NCBI GenBank assembly: GCA_947465255.1
Contig: CANIAA010000006.1
Location: forward strand, 1-33,980
Direction of reading: 5' to 3'
Length of the DNA stretch: 33,980 nucleotides
Source of the DNA: Flavobacteriales bacterium
Lineage (GTDB): Bacteria; Bacteroidota; Bacteroidia; Flavobacteriales_D; Sanyastnellaceae
Shown here: positions 5,313-29,883 of the stretch, piece after piece
Numbering within the stretch: position 1 is the first letter of the stretch
How the letters are laid out: the number at the start of each line of letters is the position of its first letter
Notes under the pieces: model-generated
What the model was told of the DNA's origin: nothing
The model's input: only the letters and a program-made list of their open reading frames with translations
Databases searched by the model: none
Program-made: the position numbers and the translations under genes

Positions 5313-5825
5313 ATGGGAGTTTATCGAGTGACAGAGATAACACATGCTTCACCCAAGAGTTGGGAAGATGCAACGGCCAAAGTAGTGGAAGAAGCAATGG
5401 CTCGTTTCAATAGCGTTAGTTCGGTTTATGTTCAAGACCAGACCGCAAGAGTATTAAATGGGAAGGTGAATGAGTTTTGCGTTACGGCCAAGGTCACTTA
5501 TGAAATTGTAAATCACAAATCAACCGTTACAAATATGAAAACAAAGTCAAAATCACACGCTGCCCCTAAGGCCGTGAAGAAGGCTGCTGCCAAGAAGGCT
5601 GCTCCTAAGAAGAAAGCTGCTGCTAAGAAAGCTGCTCCTAAGAAGGCTGCTGCTAAGAAGGCTGCTGCTCCTAAGAAGGCTGCTGCTAAGAAGGCTGCTC
5701 CGAAGAAAGCTGCTGCTCCTAAGAAGGCTGCTGCTAAGAAGGCTGCTCCGAAGAAAGCTGCTGCTAAGAAGGCTGCTGCTCCGAAGAAAGCTGCTGCTCC
5801 TAAGAAGGCTGCTGCTAAGAAGTAA
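5313..5825 (+). CDS. Dodecin-domain protein with C-terminal histone-H1-like Lys/Ala/Pro-rich tail
   Basis: N-terminus MGVYRVTEITHASPKSWEDATAKVVEEAMARFNSVSSVYVQDQTARVLNGKVNEFCVTAKVTYEIVN resembles dodecin; residues from about 75 on are repeated KKAAAKKAAPKK-type sequence in the same uninterrupted frame. Confidence 0.85.
   Translation: MGVYRVTEITHASPKSWEDATAKVVEEAMARFNSVSSVYVQDQTARVLNGKVNEFCVTAKVTYEIVNHKSTVTNMKTKSKSHAAPKAVKKAAAKKAAPKKKAAAKKAAPKKAAAKKAAAPKKAAAKKAAPKKAAAPKKAAAKKAAPKKAAAKKAAAPKKAAAPKKAAAKK
5577..5822 (+). repeat. In-gene degenerate tandem repeat encoding K/A/P-rich tail (AAGAAGGCTGCTGCT / CCTAAGAAGGCTGCT units)
   Basis: Near-identical 15-24 nt blocks repeated throughout the 3' half of the ORF. 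Confidence 0.9.
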
Positions 5826-14996: not shown

Positions 14997-15016
14997 ACCG
15001 CTCGCGGTTGATAGTT

Positions 15017-15090
15017 GAAGGTTGGAGGTTGCTGATTCAAGAAAGACACACACTTTCTTAGCAGCAACGTTCAACCTTCTCTCTTTTTAT
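15017..15090 (+). terminator. Long imperfect hairpin followed by T-rich tract after rny (possible terminator)
   Basis: Arms 15017-15045 (GAAGGTTGGAGGTTGCTGATTCAAGAAAG) and 15053-15080 (CTTTCTTAGCAGCAACGTTCAACCTTCT) are imperfect reverse complements, loop ACACACA, then CTCTTTTTAT. Confidence 0.6.
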
Positions 15091-18462: not shown

Positions 18463-18609
18463 GAAGTACGAGGGACGAGGGACGAGGGACGAAGTACGAG
18501 GTAAGTTGGACGAAGTACGAGGGACTATTCACTATTTACTATTCACTATTTACTATTTACTATTTACTATTCACTATTTACTATTTACTGTTCACTACTC
18601 ACCAATCAC
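18463..18609. repeat. Tandem heptanucleotide array, 21 x 7 bp (GAGGGAC/GAAGTAC block then TATTYAC block)
   Basis: Read directly: 9 units GAAGTAC,GAGGGAC(x3),GAAGTAC,GAGGTAA,GTTGGAC,GAAGTAC,GAGGGAC, then 12 units TATTCAC,TATTTAC,TATTCAC,TATTTAC(x3),TATTCAC,TATTTAC(x2),TGTTCAC,TACTCAC,CAATCAC in one unbroken register. Confidence 0.95.
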
Positions 18610-18633
18610 AACTCCAACACGCACCTATTCTCC

Positions 18634-18657
18634 TACAATCCTTCACCCCTATAATCC
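18634..18657 (-). repeat. Octanucleotide array, TACAATCC|TTCACCCC|TATAATCC
   Basis: Three 8-bp units; on the minus strand GGATTATA|GGGGTGAA|GGATTGTA, matching the arrays at 19607 and 29702. Confidence 0.75.
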
Positions 18658-18663
18658 TTCCAC

Positions 18664-19620
18664 ATGAAAATCCTCGCCAACGACGGCATCGACAGCACCG
18701 GTAAGAAAGCCCTTGAAGCTATGGGCTGCACTGTAATCACCGAAAAAGTTGCACAGGAAAATCTGGCTGCAGCCATCAACACCGAAGGCTACGACGGCCT
18801 CTTGGTGCGCAGTGCAACTACTGCACGCAAAGACTTGATTGATGCGTGTCCGGGATTGAAGTTCATCGGTCGCGGTGGCGTGGGCATCGACAACATCGAT
18901 GCAGAGTATGCGCGCAGCAAAGGCGTTGACGTGTTCAACACACCTGCTTCGAGTTCACAAGCTGTGGCGGAATTGGTGATGTCGGTATTGTTTGCAGCAG
19001 CGCGCGGTGTATACGACAGTGGTCGCAACATGCACTCAGCTGATGGAAAAGCATTTGAAACACTGAAAAAGAAATACAGCAAAGGATTTGAGTTGCGCGG
19101 CAAGACCATTGGCATTGTAGGTTTCGGGCGTATTGGTCAGAGCCTAGCCTCGTATGCTCTTGGATGCGGCATGCGCGTAATTGCATGCGACCGCACAACT
19201 GATGAGTACAAGACGCTCACTATAGACATGGGCGGACAAAACGTTCACGTCAATGTTCCCTACATGCCCTTTCATGCCTTGCTTCGCGAAGCTGATATTG
19301 TGTCGCTGCACGTGCCCAAACAGGCCGATGGCTCAGCCGTAATCGGAAGCGAAGAATTCCAGTATGTGCGCGAAGGCGCTGTTCTGATAAATACCTCGCG
19401 CGGTGGTGTCATAGACGAAACTGCTCTTATTGAAAATCTCAACAACGGCAAAGTGCGCTCGGCGTGTCTCGATGTATTTGTCGGAGAACCGAACGCTAAT
19501 CCTGCCATCATTTCTCACCCCGGCATCATTGCTACGCCGCACATCGGCGCGAGCACGGTGGAAGCGCAGGAGCGCATTGGGTTGGAGATTGCGGAGAATG
19601 TGAGGAGGATAAAAGGATAG
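18664..19620 (+). CDS. serA: D-3-phosphoglycerate dehydrogenase, short form without ACT domain
   Basis: KILANDGIDSTGKKALEAMGCTV...LVRSATTARKDLIDACPGLKFIGRGGVGIDNIDAEYA; GKTIGIVGFGRIGQSLASYALGCGM; INTSRGGVIDETALIENL; ATPHIGASTVEAQERIG. Confidence 0.95.
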   Translation: MKILANDGIDSTGKKALEAMGCTVITEKVAQENLAAAINTEGYDGLLVRSATTARKDLIDACPGLKFIGRGGVGIDNIDAEYARSKGVDVFNTPASSSQAVAELVMSVLFAAARGVYDSGRNMHSADGKAFETLKKKYSKGFELRGKTIGIVGFGRIGQSLASYALGCGMRVIACDRTTDEYKTLTIDMGGQNVHVNVPYMPFHALLREADIVSLHVPKQADGSAVIGSEEFQYVREGAVLINTSRGGVIDETALIENLNNGKVRSACLDVFVGEPNANPAIISHPGIIATPHIGASTVEAQERIGLEIAENVRRIKG

Positions 19621-19638
19621 TAGGATTATAGGATTGCA
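19607..19638 (+). repeat. Octanucleotide array overlapping the serA stop codon
   Basis: GGATAAAA|GGATAGTA|GGATTATA|GGATTGCA, four 8-bp units; TAG stop at 19618-19620. Confidence 0.85.
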
Positions 19639-19685
19639 GTGGGGGCCAACTTTCAACATTCACTTTCATTTTTTCAGCGCTTAGA

Positions 19686-19712
19686 AATTCTGCGTTCTTT
19701 GCGTCTTCGCGG
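19686..19712. repeat. Nonanucleotide motif, AATTCTGCG|TTCTTTGCG|TCTTCGCGG
   Basis: Three 9-bp units with GCG/CGC anchor. Confidence 0.65.
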
Positions 19713-19746
19713 TTAATCCACTTCCCTCCTATCTTTGACGGAAAAT

Positions 19747-19858
19747 TAGTCACTAGTCACTAGTCACTAGTCACTAGTCACTAGTCACTAGTCACTAGTC
19801 ACTAGTCACTAGTCACTAGTCACTCGCAACTAGTCACTCGCAACTCGTCACTCGCCAC
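19747..19858. repeat. Tandem heptanucleotide array: 11 perfect TAGTCAC + 5 variant units
   Basis: 19747-19823 is TAGTCAC x 11 exactly; 19824-19858 is TCGCAAC,TAGTCAC,TCGCAAC,TCGTCAC,TCGCCAC. Confidence 0.98.
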
Positions 19859-19863
19859 TGATT

Positions 19864-21078
19864 ATGCCCTCCCTCCGCCCCTTCACCGCCGTTCGCCCCA
19901 CGCGCGACAAAGTGCACCTTGTGGCATCGCGCTCGTATGTGAGTTACACGGCGTTGCAATTGAGGTCAAAGTTGACGGAGAACCCGTTCAGCTTTCTGCA
20001 CATCATCCATCCGGATATGACAACGACGAACTTGCACAAGACGGTGGACTTAGGTGAGCGCTTCAAGCAGGTGCGCGGCAAGTACGACGAGTTTTTGGCC
20101 GAGGGTATTCTGCAACGCGATGACACACCGAGCCTTTACATCTACCGGCAGATCAAAGCCGGACATGCGTTCACCGGTATCATTGGCGCAGTTTCGGTCG
20201 ACGATTATCTCAGCGGTAAAATCAAAATCCACGAGAAGACCATTGCCAAGCGGGAAGAGACCTTTGTGCAATACCTCGACATTACGAAAATCAATGCCGA
20301 GCCTGTGCTGCTCATGGCGCGCGACAGCAAAACCATCGATGACATCATCGCCCAAAAAACTCTTGAGCGTCCGGAATACGACTTCACCACGACCAACAAA
20401 GTGCACCATCAGTTTTGGTTAATCGATGATGCTGCTTCCATTGAAGCCATTGCACAAGCATACGCAACGCAAGACGCTTTCTACATCGCCGACGGGCATC
20501 ACCGAAGCAGTAGCAGCGCGCTTTTATTTGAAAAACACAAAGCATCGATTACGAATGATCATGACCCGATGCGCTTTTGCCTAGCCTATATTCTTTCGGA
20601 AGAAAACGTGCGCATCTACGAGTTCAATCGCATTGTGAAAGATCTCAATGGTTTGAGCACTTCTGAAGTGCTTGAAAAACTTGGGAACGCTTTTCAGGTA
20701 GCACCTTCAGACAATCCTGTGCATCCGCATCGCAAAGGCGAAATGGGACTGTACCTGGAAAACAACTGGTATAAACTCAGCTTGAAAGAAGCCTCCGATA
20801 TTCTCGACGTGCAGTTACTCACCGATCTCGTGCTGGAGCCCATCTTCGGTATTTCCGATTTGCGCAAAGACAAGCGCATCAGTTTTATGGAAGGACCAAA
20901 AGGTCTTGACGCACTGATCCAAACCGTCGACAAGCAAGGCACAGGCGCTGCGTTCACACTTTTTGCCCCAACGGTAGATGACATCAAGCGCATCGCCGAC
21001 GCCGGTCAAACCATGCCACCCAAAAGCACGTGGGTAGAACCCAAACTTCGCAGCGGGTTAGTTGTTTATGAGTTCTGA
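19864..21078 (+). CDS. DUF1015 family protein
   Basis: RPFTAVRPTRDKVHLVASRSYVSY..., NPFSFLHIIHPD, YIADGHHRSSSSALLFEKH; position after serC-serA is common in Bacteroidota. Confidence 0.9.
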   Translation: MPSLRPFTAVRPTRDKVHLVASRSYVSYTALQLRSKLTENPFSFLHIIHPDMTTTNLHKTVDLGERFKQVRGKYDEFLAEGILQRDDTPSLYIYRQIKAGHAFTGIIGAVSVDDYLSGKIKIHEKTIAKREETFVQYLDITKINAEPVLLMARDSKTIDDIIAQKTLERPEYDFTTTNKVHHQFWLIDDAASIEAIAQAYATQDAFYIADGHHRSSSSALLFEKHKASITNDHDPMRFCLAYILSEENVRIYEFNRIVKDLNGLSTSEVLEKLGNAFQVAPSDNPVHPHRKGEMGLYLENNWYKLSLKEASDILDVQLLTDLVLEPIFGISDLRKDKRISFMEGPKGLDALIQTVDKQGTGAAFTLFAPTVDDIKRIADAGQTMPPKSTWVEPKLRSGLVVYEF

Positions 21079-21756: not shown

Positions 21757-21978
21757 ATGTCGAAAAAAACACGCATTATCTACCTCTGTATTGCACCCTG
21801 CCTGTTCCTGTTAAGCTGGTACATTTCACACAGAATGTATACCGACTATTTACAGAACGGAGTCGGTAATATGCGTTATGCCGGCGAAGAACGCAGCTTC
21901 ATGTATGCGTCCGTATTTACCGGAATCTATCTGGTGGCGTTTTTTGTGATACGCGATTTGTACAAGGATAAAGAGTGA
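21757..21978 (+). CDS. Small membrane protein of unknown function
   Basis: 73 aa with two hydrophobic segments, 5 nt after yggS; stop codon lies inside the heptamer array. Confidence 0.55.
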   Translation: MSKKTRIIYLCIAPCLFLLSWYISHRMYTDYLQNGVGNMRYAGEERSFMYASVFTGIYLVAFFVIRDLYKDKE

Positions 21979-22079
21979 CTAGTGATTAGTGACTAGTGAT
22001 TAGTGAATAGTGACTAGTGAATAGTGACTAGTGAGCAGTAACTACTGGCAAGTCACTACTCACTAGTCACTAGTCACTC
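21975..22079. repeat. Heptanucleotide array, 15 x 7 bp, with internal orientation reversal (inverted repeat)
   Basis: GTGACTA,GTGATTA,GTGACTA,GTGATTA,GTGAATA,GTGACTA,GTGAATA,GTGACTA,GTGAGCA,GTAACTA,CTGGCAA,GTCACTA,CTCACTA,GTCACTA,GTCACTC. Confidence 0.92.
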
Positions 22080-22158
22080 AGTTATAGGCATATTATTCCC
22101 CTCGCTCCGCCCGCCATCGCTCGCAACTTTTAATTTTATGCTCATAAATTCTTTTTCG

Positions 22159-29701: not shown

Positions 29702-29733
29702 GGAATACAGGATTGAAGGATTGTAGAATTGTA
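29702..29733 (+). repeat. Octanucleotide array upstream of thrS
   Basis: GGAATACA|GGATTGAA|GGATTGTA|GAATTGTA, four 8-bp units. Confidence 0.82.
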
Positions 29734-29883
29734 GGGTGCGCCAACCATCAACCTTTGAGTTTATAACAGCTGAAGGGTTCGGAGGGTGCAGAGAATTTTC
29801 CGGCTCTCTGCGGTTTGCATTTCTATTCTACGCTTTTTTTTGCGTGGCAAGCCGAGCGAAGACAAGAACGTAAGAGCATACCT

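Follow-up and report, generated by a model that had tools for sequence, protein, structure and literature searches.

The spacer between serA (positions 18664-19620, encoding a 2-hydroxyacid dehydrogenase) and a DUF1015 gene (19864-21078) carries a succession of short repeats with several different periods. This raises the question of whether these repeats make up one composite element or several unrelated ones. The window, meaning the whole stretch of 33,980 nucleotides that was analysed, is a contig (G000:C6) of G000, a metagenome-assembled genome (MAG) of 2.45 Mb in 265 contigs that is 77% complete. It was compared with the sister species G001 and G003 to G007 and, as an outgroup, with G017 from another genus; the genus panel contains eight genomes, one of which is 99% and another 94% complete. 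Spacer statistics derive from sampled stretches and a simple home-made gene caller that may have missed short or overlapping genes. Autocorrelation was calculated on the intergenic DNA within 430 kb, local arrays were scored over 726 kb of G000, and the counts of positions and stems pool four array-bearing species.

No known Rfam RNA scores above its gathering score within the window. An assembly artefact was rejected, given that the orthologous site in G007 has a matching serA-DUF1015 composite whose sequence has diverged.

Modules of the spacer and their order

Every module that a preliminary description listed for this spacer can be found there, displaced by no more than a few bases (Table 1). 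The octamers read AGGATAAA, AGGATAGT, AGGATTAT and AGGATTGC, and the serA stop codon, TAG (19618-19620), is contained among them. Only two of the CAACYTT-type heptamers are good copies, the third being degenerate. The nonamer block has three GCG anchors spaced by 9 and then 8 nucleotides, hence a weak period, and a 28-mer taken from it has two further copies in the genome at two to three mismatches. About 16 units make up the TAGTCAC array, of which the final five are degenerate.

Table 1. Repeat features of the window discussed in the text
Feature	Position	Strand	Remark
Octamer array AGGATWRY x4	19606-19639	+	Starts inside the last serA codons and provides the serA stop
GGG-rich linker TGGGGGC	19640-19646	+	Typical connector from octamers to the following module
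CAACYTT-type heptamers CAACTTT, CAACATT and degenerate CACTTTC	19647-19667	+	
Nonamer block TTCTGCGTTCTTTGCGTCTTCGCGGTTAA, right-arm orientation of AACCGCAAAG..	19688-19716	+	Paired arms in other copies
TAGTCAC heptamer array	19747-19859	+	Stops 4 nt short of the DUF1015 ATG
Heptamer arrays ACGAGGG then ACTATTT, aminotransferase-serA spacer	18468-18611	+	Other units in sister species
Reverse octamers CCTACAATCCTTCACCCCTATAATCC	18631-18662	-	Immediately 5' of the serA ATG
Inverted TAGTGAC arms (hairpin), small ORF-recA spacer	21974-22083	+	
Hairpin with arms GTTGAAG / CAACCTTC, g12-g13 spacer	15006-15079	+	Unit conserved in G004, G005 and G006
thrS-upstream succession of octamers, CAACC heptamers and nonamer-like units	29709-29792	+	

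Intergenic DNA in the 430-kb sample shows autocorrelation at lag 7 (z = 14.6), with little or no global excess at lags 8 and 9 (z = 0.1 and 3.2). When arrays were scored locally over 726 kb, intergenic DNA held 32 with period 7 and 10 with period 8, whereas Markov shuffles yielded none and coding DNA almost none. Period-9 arrays numbered zero in the same 726 kb, with no excess over shuffles. The excess periodicity of 7, 8 and 9 nucleotides that the preliminary description expected in other intergenic regions is thus borne out for 7 and 8, as local arrays, and fails for 9; we rejected the nonamers as a periodic class and regard them as a small dispersed family. The heptamers and octamers are dispersed throughout the genome: three consecutive TAGTCAC units (at most two mismatches) match at 85 places and three consecutive octamers (at most three mismatches) at 36, the reversed-pattern controls giving none in either case.

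A coding repeat of another kind is also present in the window. A dodecin-domain protein (5313-5825) has a long Lys/Ala-rich tail encoded by ~15 copies of the 15-bp unit AAGAAGGCTGCTGCT, and this tail region varies between sister species.

Module order was checked at G000 octamer sites collected by octamer sequence alone, which form 35 distinct arrays. A CAACYTT module lies at most 80 nucleotides downstream on the same strand in 15 of the 35, whereas the control configurations (downstream in the opposite orientation, upstream in either orientation) gave 0/35 each; a random intergenic stretch of 80 nucleotides contains the module in 1.3% of cases. Nonamer blocks occur within 130 nucleotides past the octamer arrays in up to seven cases (four forward, three reverse). 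Part of the module order is fixed, running from octamers through the GGG-rich linker to CAACYTT heptamers and often on to a AACCGCAAAG nonamer block. The order is genuine, and the modular idea is correct for this octamer cassette. TAGTCAC is a separate and independent family, most often seen as inverted arms with no octamers nearby. The serA-DUF1015 spacer is a mosaic in which the pattern is incomplete, the octamer-linker-CAACYTT-nonamer cassette following serA and a lone right-hand TAGTCAC arm preceding DUF1015. Its folding z score is -5.5 in G000 and only -1.6 in G007, and it is not a clean hairpin. The similar succession proposed upstream of thrS can be found, although it is thin, comprising 1.7 copies of GTGAATA, ~3.4 octamers (29709-29735), two CAACC heptamers (29742-29755) and two nonamer-like units (29775-29792).

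A survey of 84,980 species genomes for octamers followed by a gap and CAACYTT recovered the cassette in several other freshwater-type Flavobacteriales MAGs and in MAGs labelled Chryseobacterium gleum. JAIYBR010000217 carries, in a row, an octamer, GGGGGCGCC, CAACTTT, TTAACCGCAAAGGCGC, an octamer and CACTCGCC, and a Bacteroidales MAG (L158) has GGACTGTA octamers and then CAACTTT. Several taxa outside this group also gave exact matches to the composite pattern (L146, L148, L152, L153, L154, L159, L161); these were set aside, as they are without octamer arrays and look like chance. The octamer is present in six of seven sister species and missing from G003. Of 52 further genomes from the family and order, one matched it weakly, and a slightly wider octamer pattern matched none of 117 other genomes of the phylum; TAGTGAC x3 was found in 4 of ~296 other genomes of the phylum. 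Spacers with any 7- or 8-mer array number 32/305 in G000, 10/71 in G007 and 0/61 in G003, and the outgroup has arrays in 2/38, with different units. On the MAG contig CANHPZ010000232 (L141), a nonamer-octamer-linker-CAACTTT cassette is itself duplicated in tandem. With regard to viral spread as a possible route, the octamer had no matches in viral contigs; the TAGTGAC heptamer had nine scattered matches in the viral collection, on nine contigs (L252-L260).

Gene 3' ends, hairpins and exchange of units

The preliminary description missed three features of these arrays: their siting at gene 3' ends, the hairpins in ~40% of them, and the change of unit between sister species with the hairpin kept. 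Arrays are present in 17 of 63 convergent spacers (27%), 49 of 376 codirectional spacers (13%) and 5 of 109 divergent spacers (5%), a frequency that rises approximately in step with how many gene 3' ends each spacer type contains (p = 0.002 for divergent versus the rest, 0.007 for convergent versus codirectional). Array edges fall between -20 and 12 nucleotides of the 3' end in 24/69 cases and of the 5' end in 5/43. Arrays tend to begin on the stop codon, and the TGA stop (21976-21978) of the small ORF before recA is likewise supplied by a TAGTGAC array. Read outward from the gene, the arrays have their G-rich strand on top, left-side arrays being G-rich in 23 cases versus C-rich in 4.

A long inverted stem is found in 30 of 71 array spacers (42%) versus 19 of 477 others (4%; p = 1.6e-17), so that more than half of the array spacers are without one. 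The paired TAGTGAC arms that were found read GTGACTA...TAGTCAC. Eighteen such pairs are spread across all seven phases, and because no constant 7-base phase links left and right arms, we rejected the idea that the hairpin is one uninterrupted array. The stems are strong, and a T-rich tail follows only 7 of the 30, a combination that differs from the stem-loop and T-run of an intrinsic terminator. In some cases an ordinary terminator lies next to the array or follows it (L074, L051, L045), and therefore the hairpin is not always the terminator. A further dispersed intergenic hairpin of the genus, the palindrome GGACGCACTGCAGTGCGTCC, occurs in array-like places (L088:9841, L140:11287, L122:2602, L125:14266, L222:3152).

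Orthologous spacers reveal both gain of arrays and replacement of their units. The serA spacers of G003 and the outgroup are only 10-36 bp long (for serA-DUF1015, G003 has 27 bp and G017 has 36 bp), and relative to these the array-bearing spacers have gained sequence. G007 has the serA-DUF1015 composite seen in G000 with a different TAGTCAC copy number, G005 has CCCAGTA-type heptamers, and G006 has AGTCATT-type heptamers. The G001 spacer contains TAGGTGA heptamers, CAACGTT heptamers, AACCGC, a YhcG/DUF1016 gene and CACTCGC heptamers. The comparison shows that modules here were replaced singly, with their places persisting; together with the independence of the TAGTCAC arrays, this leaves one fixed composite element unsupported. 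What stands of the proposed modular class is a set of dispersed families with part of their order fixed. In G001, the inserted gene (L126:661-1662) encodes a YhcG/DUF1016 PDDEXK nuclease and has the AACCGC block on one side and the heptamer arm on the other.

The aminotransferase-serA spacer has different units in G000, G005 and G006, a nonamer-plus-palindrome block in G004 and G007, and a length of 30 bp in G003. At g12-g13, the GTTGAAG hairpin is common to four species. In the small ORF-recA (sm-recA) spacer, three species have hairpins of three units, all adjoining the conserved recA leader: TAGTGAC in G000 (folding z = -6.0), GTGAAATG of period 8 in G005 (z = -10.4) and GGGTACT in G007 (z = -7.0), with 0.1 for the leader control. 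Between a convergent gene pair (L089/L236; L089:6473-6546), G000 has a hairpin of TAGTGAC heptamers and G006 a hairpin of AGGATTGT octamers, 74 versus 76 bp in length with z scores of -3.7 and -10.9, respectively. The flanking proteins end in ..NPVMMIV and ..VKEMFN with the identical last residue in both species, the two genes stop with TGA and TAA in one species but both with TAG in the other, and no target-site duplication was seen at the junctions. At L047/L222, an octamer hairpin corresponds to a GGACGCAC palindrome. Hairpin retention across a change of unit is suggested by a handful of orthologous sites. Two G005 spacers (L223:4242-5853) contain several copies of a ~45-bp core (..TTGTATGATGAATTCTATGCGCAGCCG..) with flanking GTACTTA heptamers; the orthologous G000 spacers are without it.

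Explanations for the arrays

We tentatively favor the explanation, with a probability of about 0.48, that the arrays are a mosaic of dispersed non-coding repeat families behind stop codons, in which a 3'-end hairpin and the stop codon are selected and the sequence is free. Several such families accumulate just past stop codons within a single genus of freshwater Flavobacteriales; each is a short tandem unit of 7 or 8 bp, the 9-bp-like block being less periodic. Their arms point away from gene 3' ends, have the G-rich strand in sense and often include the stop codon. A matching inverted arm is frequent, so that the transcript would fold into a long hairpin directly after the stop. If selection retains the hairpin and stop codon rather than the sequence, then the unit would be freely replaceable, whether by slippage, by fold-back copying or by copies brought in from other spacers. 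The RNA hairpin might act as mRNA 3' protection or in weak termination. Against this explanation stand the serA-DUF1015 spacer, which is no clean hairpin, the array spacers that have no long stem and the scarcity of T-rich tails. In addition, the serA spacers of outgroups resemble junctions within operons, and a terminator at such a place would do harm.

Alternatively, the arrays could be neutral or selfish repeats, spread by slippage and recombination and purged from coding DNA and promoters so that they remain behind stop codons, their stems being functionless by-products of fold-back. We consider this possible, if not our expectation, and it stays serious because many arrays, including that of serA-DUF1015, are half-arms and the G007 orthologue folds poorly. 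Scarcity between divergent genes is compatible with promoter avoidance, units and presence turn over rapidly, and G003 lives without arrays (0/61 spacers). Neutrality is harder to reconcile with the strong z scores of stems that survive a complete change of unit (sm-recA, L089/L236), and with arrays twice as frequent in convergent as in codirectional spacers.

A further reading, which we think unlikely, is a more specific and so far undescribed exchange process. Whole 3'-end hairpins of one unit would be replaced by those of another, from stop codon to stop codon and without a recognisable transposase or reverse transcriptase, such that shape and stop are inherited and sequence and period are not.

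Non-autonomous elements of the REP/BIME or MITE kind, mobilised by the genome's IS200-type Y1 transposase, would also be dispersed, intergenic and equipped with inverted arms, and Y1_Tnp genes are present in all eight genus genomes; octamer arrays sometimes point inward from both spacer ends, at most 130 nucleotides apart in 6 of 35. However, the array-free G003 also has Y1_Tnp, arrays lie near only 2 of 14 Y1_Tnp genes although a RAYT gene is said always to have an inverted pair of REPs around it (PMC2817692), no target-site duplication was seen at the L089/L236 junctions, and the arms are tandem arrays of variable length. Y1_Tnp does not track the arrays, its role as driver is not supported, and we judge mobilisation of this kind improbable.

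Phase-variable simple sequence repeats, whose copy number would switch expression, are very improbable: the units are short, tandem and close to genes, and TAGTCAC copy number differs between G000 and G007, but the units are degenerate and the arrays lie behind genes rather than within promoters or reading frames, with housekeeping genes such as serA and recA as neighbours in the window. Telomerase-like addition of repeats templated by a reverse transcriptase would account for many copies of a few defined units, although nothing specific to it was seen, and we rejected it as having almost no likelihood since RVT_1 (PF00078) has no match in any of the eight genus genomes, one 99% and one 94% complete, and did match control genomes.

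Comparison with known repeat systems

Cyanobacteria and a few other bacteria have been known for a long time to carry intergenic heptamer repeats, to our knowledge without a settled function or mechanism of spread. In this genus, arrays are absent, shared or exchanged site by site among close relatives, so that their origin and function are open to direct tests. If the shape of the hairpin does outlast the change of unit, it would be an extreme case of structure conservation without sequence conservation. The suggestion that such elements might be undescribed does not hold for intergenic heptamers, which have been published with the same placement (PMC4692102, PMC4679880); the octamer cassette, its fixed order and the exchange of units with a retained hairpin appear to be new, not having been found in a literature search that covered little of the subscription literature.

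Rehm et al. (2015, PMC4692102) described G-rich heptameric intergenic repeats, with the unit GGGAATC in Xanthomonas and GGGGAYT in Nostoc. They are scarce between divergent ORFs, their G-rich strand is the sense strand less than 50 bp from stop codons and overlapping them, some inverted copies could form stem-loops, and long arrays lie at different genes in two species (PMC4692102). The arrays described here are similarly intergenic tandem heptamers in excess (32 vs 0), depleted between divergent ORFs and with a G-rich sense strand near stops. In contrast, many units, as well as octamers, occupy the gene-end position within one genome of this genus, the octamer-CAACYTT order is fixed, and the unit changes with the hairpin kept at some sites. 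Also, most units cannot form G-quadruplexes: TAGTGAC, AGGATTRT, GTTGAAG and ACTATTT have no G3 runs, which are found in only a few arrays (GGGTACT, GGGGACT, GAGGGAC).

TAACTGA repeats occur in Beggiatoaceae, Cyanobacteria and some Bacteroidetes (MacGregor 2015, PMC4679880). They consist of a single heptamer, mostly just 5' of start codons, rarely inverted and with some stop-codon overlap; mixed heptamer assemblages exist in some Bacteroidetes, and spacers of close relatives are shorter and repeat-free (PMC4679880). Our arrays share the intergenic heptamers, the mixture of units, the overlap with stop codons and the short repeat-free spacers in relatives, but their units differ, they start at 3' ends (24/69 vs 5/43 at 5' ends) and they are often inverted.

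REP and BIME elements are associated with RAYT transposases (Nunvar et al. 2010, PMC2817692). Like these, the elements of this genus are short dispersed extragenic palindromes that are mosaic and species-specific, although their arms are tandem 7- or 8-mers of variable length, and the Y1 genes are mostly unflanked and do not track abundance. Borg elements (PMC9879509) also have fast-evolving, recently formed tandem repeats, some of them intergenic, but are extrachromosomal and archaeal, and their repeats are not recurring 7/8-mer families at gene 3' ends. Calothrix tandem heptanucleotides resemble our arrays in having several families per genome, whereas the octamer cassette and the exchange of units at orthologous sites are not part of their description as cited in PMC4692102. 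The repeat class is thus already known, mainly from cyanobacteria and Xanthomonas, and this genus presents an unusually dynamic version of it.
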